Origin: Terriglobia bacterium
GTDB lineage: Bacteria; Acidobacteriota; Terriglobia; Terriglobales; Acidobacteriaceae
Direction of reading: 5' to 3'
NCBI GenBank assembly: GCA_020073105.1
Contig: JAIQFW010000006.1
Span: 1-42,878, forward strand
DNA: 42,878 nucleotides
In this document: positions 21,800-25,376 of the stretch, piece after piece
Position numbering within the stretch: position 1 is the stretch's first letter
Layout: each line of letters starts with the position of its first letter
Notes under the pieces: model-generated
Told to the model about the DNA's origin: nothing
What the model saw: the letters and a program-made list of their open reading frames with translations, nothing else
Databases searched by the model: none
Position numbers and translations under genes: made by a program

Positions 21800-22280
21800 C
21801 TGAAGGGTCTTACTTCGATTGTGAAGGTGCTTCTTTGCGGGGGCAGCTTTTCAGTTTCAGCCACTTGAAACCTTGCCGGTAGTTGTAGTTAATGTTGCTG
21901 CATCGGTTATGGGTAAGCGGAGAAGTGTACGAGCCGTTGCGCAACAGCAACCAGAGAGCGACGCCGGCGGCAGCATAAAGTCAAAACATTCTTAGGAAGG
22001 AAATGCCAAAGCCCAAGCGCCGAGTTCCGGTGACTGCGTTAAACGCCTGGCCCACTTCCATCCTGGAGATGGAAGAGAGGTCGATTAACAGCACCGGCTG
22101 AAACGAGAACACCCAACTGGCACCGAGCGAACCAAATCGCTCATCGAGAGTGCGGATGGAAGGGTGGCGACAGTGGTAGCGACTCGGCGGGAGAAAAACC
22201 AGTGACCAACAAAAACCAAGTAGAACCCACTTGACTCCGACCGGCCTTCTCACGGAAGGCGTTAGCAGATGATTATGCAC
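21800..22280. other. Gene-free stretch left of the IS1595 transposase
   Basis: About 480 bases with no convincing gene. A 32-codon frame at 22003 and a 123-codon minus-strand frame lack support. I expected the left end of the insertion sequence here but could not find terminal inverted repeats matching the right side, so the element may be truncated or its ends diverged. Confidence 0.5.
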
Positions 22281-22309
22281 TTGACACAGCAGCCCATTTC
22301 TGCCATGAT
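22281..22309 (+). promoter_or_regulatory. Probable transposase promoter
   Basis: A consensus -35 TTGACA at 22281-22286 is followed after 17 bases by CATGAT at 22304-22309, four of six matches to the -10 consensus. Transcription would begin some 20 bases before the transposase start. Confidence 0.55.
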
Positions 22310-22335
22310 GTTCCTGTCCGCTGGAGATGGGAACC

Positions 22336-23301
22336 ATGAACCTCTTAGACATCTACAAAGAACTCAACACCACCGCAAAATGTCTTGCCTTTCTAGAGCA
22401 TATGCGCTGGCCTGGCGGAGTCAAGTGTGTATCCTGTGAATCCTCGCGGATAACTGCGCTCGTCGCCAAGGGGAGACGCAACAAGAAAACCGGCAAGGTC
22501 GGCCCCGACCGCCATCTTCTGCAGTGCAACGAGTGCCGCTTCCAGTTCACCGCCACCACGGGCACCATCTTCCATGACACCCACCTGCCGCTAGAGAAGT
22601 GGTTCCTCGCCATTGCCCTGATTACCGAATCGAAGAAGGGCATCTCCGCCGCGCAACTGAGCCGCGCTTTGGGTGTGCAATACCGCACCGCGTGGTATCT
22701 GGCACACCGCATCCGTAAGGCCATGGTAGAAGCCAACCCGCCCAAGCTGACAGGCGTAGTCGAACTGGATGAGACCTATATCGGCGGCAAGCAACGAGGC
22801 AGCAAACGGAAGCTCCTGAATAAAGAAGTGGTCATGGGAATTCGTGAGCGCCGTGGCGATCTGCGCCTTATCCACATTGAGAGTGCGACAGCGGAGAACC
22901 TCGGAGAGCAAATCAAGCAACACGTTTCCCCCGATGTGAAACAGGTGATGACTGACGAATGGCCCGCCTACATTCCAGCCTTCATCTCCGCTGGCATCAA
23001 GGGCACGAAGCACGAAACCATCCGGCACAGAGACAAAATCTACGTGCGCGGCAACGTGCACACCAACACCGTCGAATCCGCGTTCTCACTCTTCAAGCGC
23101 GGCCTCACCGGAGCCTTCCACAAAGTCTCCTTAAAGCACCTGCAACGCTACTTGAACGAGTTCTCCTTCCGGTTCAACAATCGGAAAGCGCCCGATCTGT
23201 TTGGGATGACGGTGCGCCGGATGGCATTGGCGGGAAATTTGCCGTATGCTCAGCTAGTCGAGGAGAACGCTTTCATGCCGTTCATCCGCAGACAAAAATA
23301 A
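22336..23301 (+). CDS. IS1595-family (ISXO2-like) transposase
   Basis: A 321-residue DDE-type transposase. The N-terminal zinc ribbon has CVSCES and LLQCNECRFQFTATTGTIFH, followed by the LPLEKWFLAIALITESKKGI helix and a helix-turn-helix (SAAQLSRALGVQYRTAWYLA). The ISXO2 catalytic core shows VVELDETYIGGK (first D), VMTDEWPAYIP (second D) and NTVESAFSLFKRGLTG (third acidic residue, E). The gene appears full length. The ATG at 22336 has GGAG nine bases upstream; the in-frame ATG at 22327 is an alternative. No terminal inverted repeats or target duplication could be assigned by eye. Confidence 0.93.
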   Translation: MNLLDIYKELNTTAKCLAFLEHMRWPGGVKCVSCESSRITALVAKGRRNKKTGKVGPDRHLLQCNECRFQFTATTGTIFHDTHLPLEKWFLAIALITESKKGISAAQLSRALGVQYRTAWYLAHRIRKAMVEANPPKLTGVVELDETYIGGKQRGSKRKLLNKEVVMGIRERRGDLRLIHIESATAENLGEQIKQHVSPDVKQVMTDEWPAYIPAFISAGIKGTKHETIRHRDKIYVRGNVHTNTVESAFSLFKRGLTGAFHKVSLKHLQRYLNEFSFRFNNRKAPDLFGMTVRRMALAGNLPYAQLVEENAFMPFIRRQK

Positions 23302-23321
23302 ACCCAATCTTGCGGATTGGG
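23292..23321 (-). terminator. Minus-strand intrinsic terminator at the IS 3' side
   Basis: On the minus strand, CCCAATC and GATTGGG (23303-23309 and 23315-23321) form a 7-bp stem with a five-base loop, followed by TTTATTTTTG. It would block transcripts entering the transposase gene from the right. Confidence 0.5.
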
Positions 23322-23418
23322 CTACGGCGGGTCGCCGCCGAACTCTTTGCTGACACTTAGAGTATGGCAGCGGCCCGCACACAAGTCAACGCTTGCAGCG
23401 TATGGCAGAGGTGTGCGA

Positions 23419-23685
23419 ATGGAAAAAATCAGGGAGGATCTGCAGCAGGAAGTTATTGCTGCACTTCGACGCTTAGCGCCAACGGGGTTTCGGTGCGAGG
23501 TATGCACTAGTCAGAACTGGGCGGTTCAAAAGGGTTTTTATTGGTTCAGCGAGCACTACCAGAGCGCGACAGTCAAGGGACATGGCCCAGAACTGCCCAG
23601 TGTAGCCGTAGTTTGTCAAACTTGCGGGAATTCAAAGTTTTTGAACACTCGCGTGCTCATTCCAAGCTTTCCGGAATACTACTAA
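23419..23685 (+). CDS. Small zinc-ribbon-like protein
   Basis: An 88-residue protein of unknown function. Two CxxC knuckles, CEVC at about residue 27 and CQTC at about residue 68, suggest a zinc ribbon. Between them is an aromatic stretch (QKGFYWFSEHYQ). The ATG at 23419 lies in an otherwise unremarkable upstream sequence; the frame extends to 23317 but that part reads through the IS end. Its stop codon is directly followed by the ATG of the next gene, so the two are translationally coupled. TTA is used at 23473-23475 for a leucine. Confidence 0.65.
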   Translation: MEKIREDLQQEVIAALRRLAPTGFRCEVCTSQNWAVQKGFYWFSEHYQSATVKGHGPELPSVAVVCQTCGNSKFLNTRVLIPSFPEYY

Positions 23686-24054
23686 ATGGGAACAGCTCCG
23701 CAAGGCGAGCCTGTTTATCAAACCAGCGACTTAACCGTCATCAGGTACCGGAAAAGGAGTCTTCAGATGTATCCGGTACTTGAACAAGAGCTAGACACGA
23801 TGGTTTCCGGTTATCAATCTGTAAATCTAGTTTTTTTTGGTATCGCATTTGGTGCTTTCATTGCAGTAGCGATTCCCTATTGGACAGTGTCTCTTGGGGA
23901 GCCACTTCAGGGCCGATTTTTCTCTGCAATGCTTGTATCAGCGGTGGCATCCGTGTACTTCGCGATCATGGCAACACGCGATTGGTTTCGATCTCGGAAG
24001 GTGATGAGACAACTTCGCAGGGAAACAGTGGACGCTGTCATTAAGGGAGACTGA
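23686..24054 (+). CDS. Small two-helix membrane protein
   Basis: A 122-residue protein with two hydrophobic segments (about 47-68: LVFFGIAFGAFIAVAIPYW, and 77-96: FFSAMLVSAVASVYFAIMAT), then a basic cytoplasmic tail DWFRSRKVMRQLRRE. The start ATG abuts the stop of the zinc-ribbon gene with no intervening base. I do not recognise the family. The pair resembles small accessory cassettes of unknown purpose seen beside insertion sequences. Confidence 0.65.
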   Translation: MGTAPQGEPVYQTSDLTVIRYRKRSLQMYPVLEQELDTMVSGYQSVNLVFFGIAFGAFIAVAIPYWTVSLGEPLQGRFFSAMLVSAVASVYFAIMATRDWFRSRKVMRQLRRETVDAVIKGD

Positions 24055-24072
24055 TTAACTTTTGCCACGGAA

Positions 24073-24435
24073 TTAATTTCTTCGGGCTCGATAACTCTCC
24101 ACTGCGGCGGTAATGGCTATGACAAGCGAAAGGAACCAAAGAAACACGCTAATCGCTGCAACAAACAAATGCACCACTGTGAATCGGGTTATTGGTCCGG
24201 TTTCATATAAATGGTGGCGGAGATCATAAATGCCCAACCCTAAAAACAGCGCACTCACAACTATCAAGATGTTAACTCTGTTGAATATTCTCTTGGCCAG
24301 CCTCACCGCTTTATCGTTGCGCGGGAGCGCCTGGGTAAGTCTTACAAACCATCCAGTTAACGCGGTGACCACCACAGTGATTGCAGCCGTTACGGCTGCT
24401 GTGACCACAATGGTGATGACTTGGCTTCTATCCAT
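24073..24435 (-). CDS. Small membrane protein, three predicted helices
   Basis: A 120-residue protein convergent with the preceding pair. Hydrophobic segments are at about 7-28 (ITIVVTAAVTAAITVVVTAL), 55-70 (ILIVVSALFLGLGIYDL) and 85-108 (VHLFVAAISVFLWFLSLVIA), with the basic end SYRARRN. Function unknown. Base composition is AT-richer than the surrounding housekeeping genes, in keeping with an accessory region. One TTA codon is used for Leu26 (24360-24358). Confidence 0.6.
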   Translation of the reverse strand: MDRSQVITIVVTAAVTAAITVVVTALTGWFVRLTQALPRNDKAVRLAKRIFNRVNILIVVSALFLGLGIYDLRHHLYETGPITRFTVVHLFVAAISVFLWFLSLVIAITAAVESYRARRN

Positions 24436-24465
24436 TGCAATCGAAAGCGGGAAGTAAGTCTTATA

Positions 24466-24609
24466 TCACGATTTCTGTGGTGGGAATAACTTCTCCGGCT
24501 TCTTCTTCGAGACCTTCACGTTCTCCCGCTTCATGGGCTTCGACTGAAGCAGGCTCTGCACGATCCCCTCGAATTTTGCGCGATCTACTTTGAGCGATTT
24601 CTTCGCCAT
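24466..24609 (-). CDS. 47-residue lysine-rich small protein
   Basis: ATG at 24609 to TGA at 24466. The translation begins AKKSLKVDRAKFEGIVQSLL and continues with KPMKRENVKVSKKKPEKLF. It is strongly basic with one amphipathic helix. Similar short proteins starting with a K-x-D-R-A-K-F segment are, from memory, scattered in acidobacterial genomes, but I know no function. It faces away from the tRNA at 24782, whose promoter region it shares. It is too short to be certain, yet its coding bias and clean ends support it. Confidence 0.55.
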   Translation of the reverse strand: MAKKSLKVDRAKFEGIVQSLLQSKPMKRENVKVSKKKPEKLFPPQKS

Positions 24610-24781
24610 GGCACGATTTCTCTAAGTCGTTGAAAGTGGTAAAAAGTGGCCGCGCGTCGCCTGAGAATCTGCGGGTGTAACCCGCATCGGCTCAATCATT
24701 CACGCGGTTTTCCACGTTTGCCTGTGGATCATTTCCATTTCCACACTTGACAGTATTGCTACTATGCCGCGCACGAATGGC

Positions 24782-24871
24782 GGAGGAGATGAGCAAACCG
24801 CTAGGCTCAGCGGCCTTAAAAGCCGCCAAACTCCTGACCGAGTTTTGTGGGTTCAACTCCCATCTCCTCCG
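24782..24871 (+). tRNA. Atypical 9/3 tRNA, anticodon UAA, predicted serine acceptor
   Basis: The 90-base RNA folds with a perfect 9-bp acceptor stem, GGAGGAGAT (24782-24790) with ATCTCCTCC (24862-24870), and discriminator G at 24871. The D stem GAGC/GCTC (24791-24794, 24805-24808) follows with no linker. The anticodon stem GCGGC/GCCGC holds loop CTTAAAA, anticodon TAA (24817-24819). The long variable arm AAACTC/GAGTTT has a six-base loop. The T stem is only 3 bp (GGG/CCC) around the canonical loop TTCAACT. A 9+3 branch keeps the usual 12 bp. Read as 7/5, the base at position 8 would be A instead of the universal U, and the T stem would need a G-U pair. G73 plus a long variable arm are serine identity features; leucine tRNAs normally have A73. 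CCA is not encoded. Two further pairs outside the stem (24780-24781 with 24871-24872) extend complementarity to 11 bp. A TTGACA sits at 24747 but no clear -10. Confidence 0.85.
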
Positions 24872-24894
24872 CGCCTCTGGAAAGGAGCCGCTCC

Positions 24895-25113
24895 GTGAAA
24901 AGCGACACCGAGAAAATACTACTCCAGTTCAAAGAGGATGTGTGGCGGATTCTCGCCACTGTCTGCCACGCGCTGCTGGCAATCATTGCAGCACTCCAGA
25001 ATCCGGCAGCAAAGACAACATCCCTTTCTCAAGCCGCCTCAGCAGTCCGCTCAGTTCTTGTCTCCGCTGATCTACTGAGCGATGAAGCGCGGCAATCTCG
25101 CGATCCCGAGTAG
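24895..25113 (+). CDS. 72-residue small protein downstream of the tRNA
   Basis: A frame from the GTG at 24895, seven bases after AAAGGAG (24881-24887), only 23 bases beyond the tRNA and with no terminator between, so tRNA and protein may share a transcript. The sequence has a charged N terminus (KSDTEKILLQFKEDVWRIL), a hydrophobic segment (ATVCHALLAIIAAL) and a polar tail. Function unknown. An opposing minus-strand 64-codon frame (25177-24983) overlaps it and also has a possible ribosome-binding site, so the coding strand is uncertain. Confidence 0.45.
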   Translation: MKSDTEKILLQFKEDVWRILATVCHALLAIIAALQNPAAKTTSLSQAASAVRSVLVSADLLSDEARQSRDPE

Positions 25114-25117
25114 CATT

Positions 25118-25150
25118 GCGGGCTGGCTTTCGGCTGGCCCGCTTCTTTCC
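25118..25150 (+). terminator. Probable terminator after the small protein
   Basis: GCGGGC (25118-25123) pairs with GCCCGC (25137-25142), and inner TGGC with GCTG adds wobble pairs; TTCTTTCC follows. The rest of the gap to 25376 holds nothing I can identify. Confidence 0.5.
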
Positions 25151-25376
25151 CCTGTCACGGCTGGCCCTAATTGTCACTTCCGCCCCCTTGATGCGTCAAA
25201 TGCATAATCGTGCGTTAGCACAAGCTTGCGCTGTTTGTTTGCCAACAACGGGGTTAATCAGCGCCACCCCACACTGTAGCGGGTTTGGACGAAATGTCAG
25301 GGTAGAGGCAGCAAAAGGGAATATGAGAAGGCCGGTTGTCCATTCAAGCCCGATTTGGGTTGGGCGGGAACCTAGC

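Follow-up and report, generated by a model that had tools for sequence, protein, structure and literature searches.

The window, the whole stretch of 42,878 nucleotides that was analysed, contains a class-II tRNA gene with a leucine anticodon and serine-like features, and the question raised by this locus is which codons such a tRNA serves and with which residue. Allo-tRNAs, whose anticodons are foreign to them, came to be known around 2017, to our knowledge without being assigned a natural target.

The tRNA is real and reads UUA. ARAGORN predicted a tRNA with the anticodon TAA at positions 24782-24872, in agreement with the initial annotation, and the G73 and six-pair variable arm (AAACTC/GAGTTT) described there are both legible in the sequence. 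The acceptor end GGAGGAG is serine-like and resembles that of the host tRNA-Ser (GGAG...), whereas the host tRNA-Leu(UAA) has the acceptor GCCCGGG and A73; neither A73 nor a leucine-type acceptor end, the marks of an ordinary tRNA-Leu(UAA), is present in the window tRNA. Its score against the Rfam family RF01852 (tRNA-Sec) was 48.7 bits (gathering score 47), with the anticodon being UAA and not the UCA of tRNA-Sec, and a separate tRNA-Sec is found in the same genome on contig C172. G73 and the long variable arm, combined with an anticodon other than one for serine, agree with the broad description of allo-tRNAs. G73 occurs in 40 of the 41 element tRNAs gathered (see below); CCA is encoded in 13 of these 41 and in none of the nine that read UUA, and in all of the host Leu and Ser tRNAs examined (n = 9). 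The source genome is a draft assembly of 308 contigs and includes a second copy of the tRNA, 98% identical, on contig C265. This copy and the strong covariance matches in family genomes (see below) speak against a chance occurrence. An unusual class-II tRNA with the anticodon GUA, for which 8/4 pairing is possible, is located on contig C70 of the same genome (L084, 1530-1620).

A perfect 9+3 branch had also been proposed, and it can be read in the sequence of the window copy; as a geometry of the family, however, 9/3 is not kept by the homologues. Among 11 aligned homologues, the pairs specific to 9/3 form in 3/11 (pair 8) and 10/11 (pair 9). The two additional T-stem pairs that distinguish 7/5, in contrast, are present in 11/11, with one instance in which both partners have changed (U-A to C-G). 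Overall, 97.4% of the cells of this alignment pair under 7/5 vs. 93.5% under 9/3, and five T-stem pairs are possible in all nine UUA-reading tRNAs gathered, with G-U counted. The 9/3 pairing of the window copy is probably accidental, since its homologues and the UUA-reading tRNAs keep 7/5. Thus, the 9-bp acceptor and 3-bp T stem of a 9/3 allo-tRNA are possible in the window but not characteristic of the gene, and the UUA group conserves 7/5 and not another division of the 12-bp branch. In many of the sister AUA-reading tRNAs, the T stem is limited to four pairs, in keeping with the published 8/4 type. The initial annotation had set a 7/5 fold in homologues, together with an A73-like leucine identity, against its own interpretation; the fold was found in the homologues and the A73 was not.

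A 2.9-kb transposon of the IS1595 family (22267-25211; Table 1) carries the tRNA as a passenger. Its transposase contains the Pfam domains DDE_Tnp_IS1595 (PF12762; 115.1 bits, cut-off 27) and Zn_ribbon_IS1595 (33.2 bits, cut-off 25.4), and the transposase gene is the most widely shared ORF among the 21 loci compared, having homologues in 15 of the 20 other tRNA loci. The inverted repeat at 22271-22291 (21 nt) is 86% complementary to 25189-25209. The direct repeat length of the IS1595 family is 8; direct repeats of 8-10 bases, differing in sequence from element to element, were identified by eye in the window and in L190, L191, L192, L194, L199, L200, and L203. The transposase domain, the terminal inverted repeats, and the flanking direct repeats place the element in this family. 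No Pfam family was detected at the cut-off for the cargo ORFs at 23317-24435, which are not among the ORFs shared by at least two other loci. Homologues of ORF B are present in six other UUA loci (41.7% identity to the L009 copy), and partial conservation is also seen for an ORF at 24983-25177 on the other strand. A transposase 96% identical to that of the window is encoded on contig C227 and, together with the tRNA on C265, would represent one second element copy that is apparently split; both tRNA copies in the genome have common flanks. Judging from the sequence, this second copy is no more than suggestive of active transposition.

Table 1. Features of the tRNA-bearing IS1595-family transposon in the window.
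Feature	Position	Strand	Remarks
Left direct repeat GCGTTAGC (target-site duplication)	22259-22266	.	Same 8 bases at 25212-25219
Left terminal inverted repeat	22267-22291	+	Outer end uncertain by 1-2 bases; similar motif ends related elements
IS1595-family (ISXO2-like) transposase	22336-23301	+	In-frame ATG also at 22327
UUA codon, transposase site 4	22345-22347	+	
UUA codon, transposase site 266	23131-23133	+	
Cargo ORF	23317-23685	+	1 TTA codon
Cargo ORF	23686-24054	+	1 TTA codon
Cargo ORF	24073-24435	-	3 TTA codons
Protein A, 47 aa, divergent partner gene	24466-24609	-	UUA codon at 24487-24489; motif K-x-IPP, here K-L-FPP
Transposon-borne tRNA	24782-24871	+	Anticodon UAA at 24817-24819; G73; CCA not encoded
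ORF B, 72 aa, GTG start	24895-25113	+	Directly 3' of the tRNA; without TTA codon
Right terminal inverted repeat	25189-25211	-	
Right direct repeat GCGTTAGC	25212-25219	.	

Upstream of the tRNA and on the other strand lies the gene for protein A, for which no family was detected in Pfam, NCBIfam, or PHROGs at E 1. A search of 300 genomes of the family with protein A as the sole query located it at 42 places in 36 genomes. The best 10 matches are all near a class-II tRNA reading UUA or AUA, as are some of the weaker ones; ARAGORN predicted such a tRNA in 14 of 30 protein A loci, and a covariance model added L115, L116, and L119. In the protein A motif, UUA accounts for 8/8 Leu codons (nine sequences, one of them with ATC) vs. 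2/26 at three other conserved Leu columns, and the codon is ATA in the AUA group (L099, L104, L105, L116, and L119). The exceptions are L193/L103 (UUA despite a UAU tRNA), L100/L192 (ATC in a UUA element), and L107/L200 (ATC in an AUA element). The covariance model produced 14 matches of 88.9-105.4 bits in 13 of the 300 family genomes, the next match scoring 68.1; 11 of these 14 were the model's own input, all beside protein A, and only three were new, namely L167 with an A-like ORF, L169 with a truncated one, and L168 with none. Across a sample of 227 genomes from the whole phylum, which included members of the same family, matches at E 1e-16 were confined to the window's own genome. A pattern-based search revealed no protein A relatives in viral contigs, and the tRNA region was not found in plasmids. 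In locus L122, the C-terminal part of a larger protein is similar to protein A, so that the A motif also occurs fused. Acido-Lenti-1 RNA (RF01687) is present inside the fetched loci L096, L117, and L159, and a second short tRNA (Ala according to ARAGORN) adjoins the AUA-reading tRNA in L105/L203, L337, and L350.

Related transposons carry either a UUA-reading or an AUA-reading tRNA, and the codons of their transposases track the anticodon. In codon counts that ignore relatedness, TTA was used 12/12 times at sites 4 and 266 of the UUA elements (n = 6) and for 1/160 Leu codons elsewhere in the transposase. In the elements with an AUA-reading tRNA (n = 21), ATA represented 15/15, 15/15, and 18/18 Ile codons at sites 4, 258, and 266, respectively (48/48), and 0/197 at 16 other columns with at least eight Ile codons; 29 further ATA codons are in columns where fewer members have Ile. 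Counted by element, ATA is present at site 4 in 15/21, at site 266 in 18/21, and at one or more of sites 4, 258, and 266 in 21/21. Sites 4 and 266 contain zero ATA in the UUA elements and zero TTA in the AUA elements. In the two columns of the initial alignment, TTA was found in 6/6 UUA elements and ATA in 8/9 and 9/10 AUA elements, L205 being the exception at both. The UUA elements are alike and perhaps constitute one clade, so that a single event may account for their codon changes. Among the tRNA-less relatives (n = 66), ATA makes up 56/976 Ile codons and TTA 55/1515 Leu codons when sites 4 and 266 are excluded; alanine is the commonest residue at site 266 (30/66 loci), and ATA occurs at site 4 in L262, L329, L330, and L338. 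UUA is not avoided across the whole window element, as the cargo ORFs hold five TTA codons. Both codons are rare in the host: UUA comprises 2.2% of Leu and AUA 5.3% of Ile codons in the 25 window ORFs of at least 200 aa.

The sample of IS1595 relatives covered 200 genomes and yielded 60 further loci and then 19 new ones; the tRNA set for the locus counts was compiled by hand, and the model search was run alike over L260-L338. Of the loci with ATA or TTA at site 266, 24/27 have the matching tRNA. In the three negative ones (L260, L325, and L321), the contig ends 83, 443, and 1177 bases away, and the tRNA model, run without filters, detected nothing convincing (best 14.8 bits). Among the loci with another codon at site 266, the tRNA was found in 3/69, with its absence less sure in the 10 that have less than 1 kb on one side; these three (L205, L337, and L263) all carry an AUA-reading tRNA and ATA at site 258, and L263 has ATA at site 4 as well. 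The association of the codon at site 266 with the tRNA has a Fisher p of 2.9e-16, relatedness being ignored. A control with 20 tRNA-less loci gave zero tRNAs at the Rfam gathering cut-off. The tRNA of L326, called ochre by ARAGORN, was read as UAU from the loop TTTATAC.

The prediction that codon and tRNA go together was fixed beforehand and applied to 20 transposase loci new to the codon analysis, of which two are not independent (L349 from genome G217, already sampled, and L362, which overlaps L108 and whose protein A was known). The pattern was largely repeated, with exceptions. ATA was found at both site 4 and site 266 in 10 loci, and an AUA-reading tRNA in 7/10; the three without it are all less than 1.2 kb from a contig end. 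ATA provides 26/26 Ile codons at the sites and 5/155 elsewhere. Neither ATA nor the tRNA was detected in L360, L361, and L363. The remaining seven loci belong to two subclades with other fixed sites, namely 8, 87 or 135, 232, 258, and 290, or 87, 129, 135, and 186. Among these seven, the tRNA is present in L352, L355, and L359 and gave a weak match in L354 (21.9 bits). No tRNA was found in L357, which is 1.2 kb from a contig end, and L358 has only an unconvincing match of 18 bits. In L353, where the AUA sites typical of the subclade are present and the flanks extend over 4.4 kb, no tRNA was found, which counts against the decoder reading.

To estimate which residue the codons specify, they were scored against the residues of tRNA-less relatives in the same columns (31 AUA, 6 UUA, and 69 tRNA-less elements). 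ATA taken as Ile scored -64 in the AUA-tRNA elements (116 codons) and +66.5 in the tRNA-less relatives (60 codons), and ATC/ATT taken as Ile scored +673 in the same AUA-tRNA elements (464 codons). With all ATA codons of the tRNA elements included, Val had the highest score (-2.9), owing to site 258; when every column contributed a single count, Ala (-0.4), Ser (-5.1), and Thr (-10.6) were in the lead, all below background. For TTA in the UUA elements, only 13 codons were available (Pro +15.7, Ala +7.5, Leu -6.3), and TTA as Leu in the tRNA-less relatives scored +74.6. On these profiles, the standard meaning of AUA and UUA in the tRNA elements is disfavoured, and serine is not singled out. The codon at a site switches between 'Leu' and 'Ile' with the anticodon, and therefore the tRNA body, rather than the standard code, most likely determines the residue. 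According to a review (PMC7609411), allo-tRNAs of S. bohemicum put Ser at the Leu codons CUC and UUA in E. coli. The residue inserted at UUA by the window tRNA is most likely serine, because of G73, the long variable arm, the GGAG acceptor end, and this reported insertion. The serine proposed by the initial annotation is thereby retained as the most likely residue, backed by the serine-like acceptor end, G73, and long variable arm. A role across the proteome, or as a weak, conditional, or regulatory RNA, gives way to a specific target, UUA or AUA codons at fixed transposase sites that track the anticodon; neither these codons nor the transposon that carries the tRNA figures in the initial annotation.

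Several other tRNAs came to light in the loci fetched. AUA-reading tRNAs of the 8/4 type in L076, L078, L080, and L081 have a convergent gene for protein C (no Pfam family) with ATA in the same column in 4/4; upstream genes in some of these loci are presumably metallopeptidase-like. ATA was observed at column 15 of protein C in four tRNA-adjacent loci and in L135, L137, and L155. L138 lacks ATA at column 15 though a UAU tRNA is about 1 kb off. Protein C was set aside, since several of its members are close relatives and it was not found in the window's genome. The small ORF 3' of the AUA-reading tRNA in L168 and L174 encodes a RelE-like protein, which we take to be of the toxin type; a toxin-antitoxin reading was considered and dismissed. 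This arrangement was seen in two of the six loci viewed, and no IS1595 transposase was found within about 5 kb in either. Leu-type tRNAs with amber or ochre anticodons are present in relatives (L209, 6408-6497; L223, 4331-4417; L092, 4018-4107). Nonsense suppression by them is no more than a lead: among reading frames within 3.5 kb that contain a matching stop once or twice, no recognisable read-through gene was seen. Finally, class-II tRNAs of the Leu type whose anticodons correspond to Pro (UGG), Ala (UGC), or Asp (GUC) are located near other IS1595 transposases (L311, 3272-3355; L313, 2995-3080; L309, 2010-2091; L334, 6477-6560). L311 has a CCA codon at a column that is Leu in 86/90 aligned transposase hits, and three CCA sites are common to L311 and L313. 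These are hints that the four tRNAs possibly represent a second recoding type.

The computed observations are the transposon, the partner gene, the matching of codons to the anticodon, and the avoidance of the codon elsewhere in the transposase. The tRNA is probably both a passenger of an IS1595 transposon and its dedicated decoder, placing one residue, most likely serine, at private codons. The transposon keeps UUA at transposase sites 4 (near the start) and 266 (near the C-terminal end) and at one protein A site, while nearly shunning it elsewhere in the transposase, and sister transposons do likewise with AUA and an AUA-reading tRNA. The host tRNA-Leu(UAA) would compete with the element tRNA at each UUA, and consequently the share of correct transposase would rise steeply with the supply of element tRNA; because the transposase has two UUA codons, its intended form should respond more than proportionally to this supply. 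We infer that competition and codon matching could together act as a switch or brake on transposition. A ratchet, in which the tRNA let the codons drift in and then became needed, is possible; a function is favoured over it because the sites are fixed and the codon is avoided elsewhere.

Many phage tRNAs are thought to boost the decoding of rare codons, and the element tRNA might merely do the same with the standard residue (Leu for UUA, Ile for AUA). The rarity of both codons in the genome, and the ability of a rare codon at a fixed place to pace translation, are consistent with this. Such a role is nevertheless unlikely, given that the same sites are used across elements of about 45-80% identity while other Leu- or Ile-rich columns are avoided, that a site flips between a Leu and an Ile codon with the anticodon, that ATA is not Ile-like in the column profiles, and that the acceptor end and G73 differ from the host tRNA-Leu. 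The prevalence of alanine at site 266 in the tRNA-less relatives and its best fit per column would suit a tRNA that inserts alanine, threonine, or another small residue instead of serine. The G3:U70 pair is the alanine signature of tRNA, and none of the acceptors listed has it (the apparent one in L337 results from a start that is off by one base). In addition, G73 and the long variable arm fit SerRS, and serine insertion has been reported for related tRNAs (PMC7609411); insertion of such another residue is accordingly improbable.

Still less probable is a role as a 9/3 allo-tRNA in general missense suppression or in host regulation. The window copy can form the perfect 9/3 pairing, and an acidobacterial allo-tRNA tested with UUA is classed as 9/3 in PMC7609411, but the homologues do not keep 9/3, and the gene is patchy transposon cargo (14 strong matches, 13/300 family genomes) with its target codons on the element. 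It would likewise be surprising if the TTA and ATA triplets were a DNA or RNA motif of the transposon that matches the anticodon by coincidence of descent. The codons are inherited within clades, and the string AAG-TTA-ATC is nearly constant in protein A, as such a motif would be; against this, separate sites in two genes on opposite strands all switch with the anticodon, adjacent synonymous positions vary, and other subclades use other sites. A dedicated decoder borne by the transposon is thus preferred. The wider proposition is that a whole transposon family has a private code, in which a serine-charging tRNA reads a rare sense codon at set sites of the transposase and helper genes and provides a steep switch for jumping, and that many 'allo-tRNAs' are such decoders; towards this we lean only slightly.

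If true, at least the UUA and AUA groups of allo-tRNAs would serve transposons that reassign a sense codon in their own genes, the host code remaining standard. This would be local reassignment of a sense codon on a simple insertion element and a new control of transposition; it would also supply code engineering with natural tRNA/codon pairs and make the purpose of allo-tRNAs directly testable in E. coli. The parts, an allo-tRNA and an IS1595 element, are of known kinds, and what is claimed as new is a transposon with a private sense codon. In a search that largely covered open-access and not subscription literature, no paper was found that connects the recoding of a transposase with allo-tRNAs or with tRNAs borne by elements; the review PMC7609411 does voice the suspicion of a transposon tie for allo-tRNAs.

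The 8/4 and 9/3 allo-tRNAs of Mukai, Söll and colleagues, as reviewed in PMC7609411, are similar to the window tRNA in being acidobacterial class-II tRNAs of serine-like identity with non-serine anticodons, UAU being prominent among them. In contrast, the UUA group to which the window tRNA belongs keeps 7/5, and the tRNA is assigned to a defined transposon whose own genes contain the matched codons. The tRNA-Sec involved in UGA recoding (RF01852) shares the class-II type and the long variable arm, and its Rfam cut-off is passed, whereas the codon here is a sense codon. The window element shares with IS1595 (ISXO2-like) transposons the transposase domain, passenger genes, inverted repeats, and flanking direct repeats about 8 bases long; unlike them, it carries a tRNA and uses the codon of that tRNA at fixed transposase sites. 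Some phages reassign a stop codon using their own suppressor tRNA. There, too, a mobile element brings a tRNA that alters the meaning of a codon in its own genes; in the present case, however, the codon is a sense codon, the element is a simple transposon, and the host tRNA for the codon is retained.
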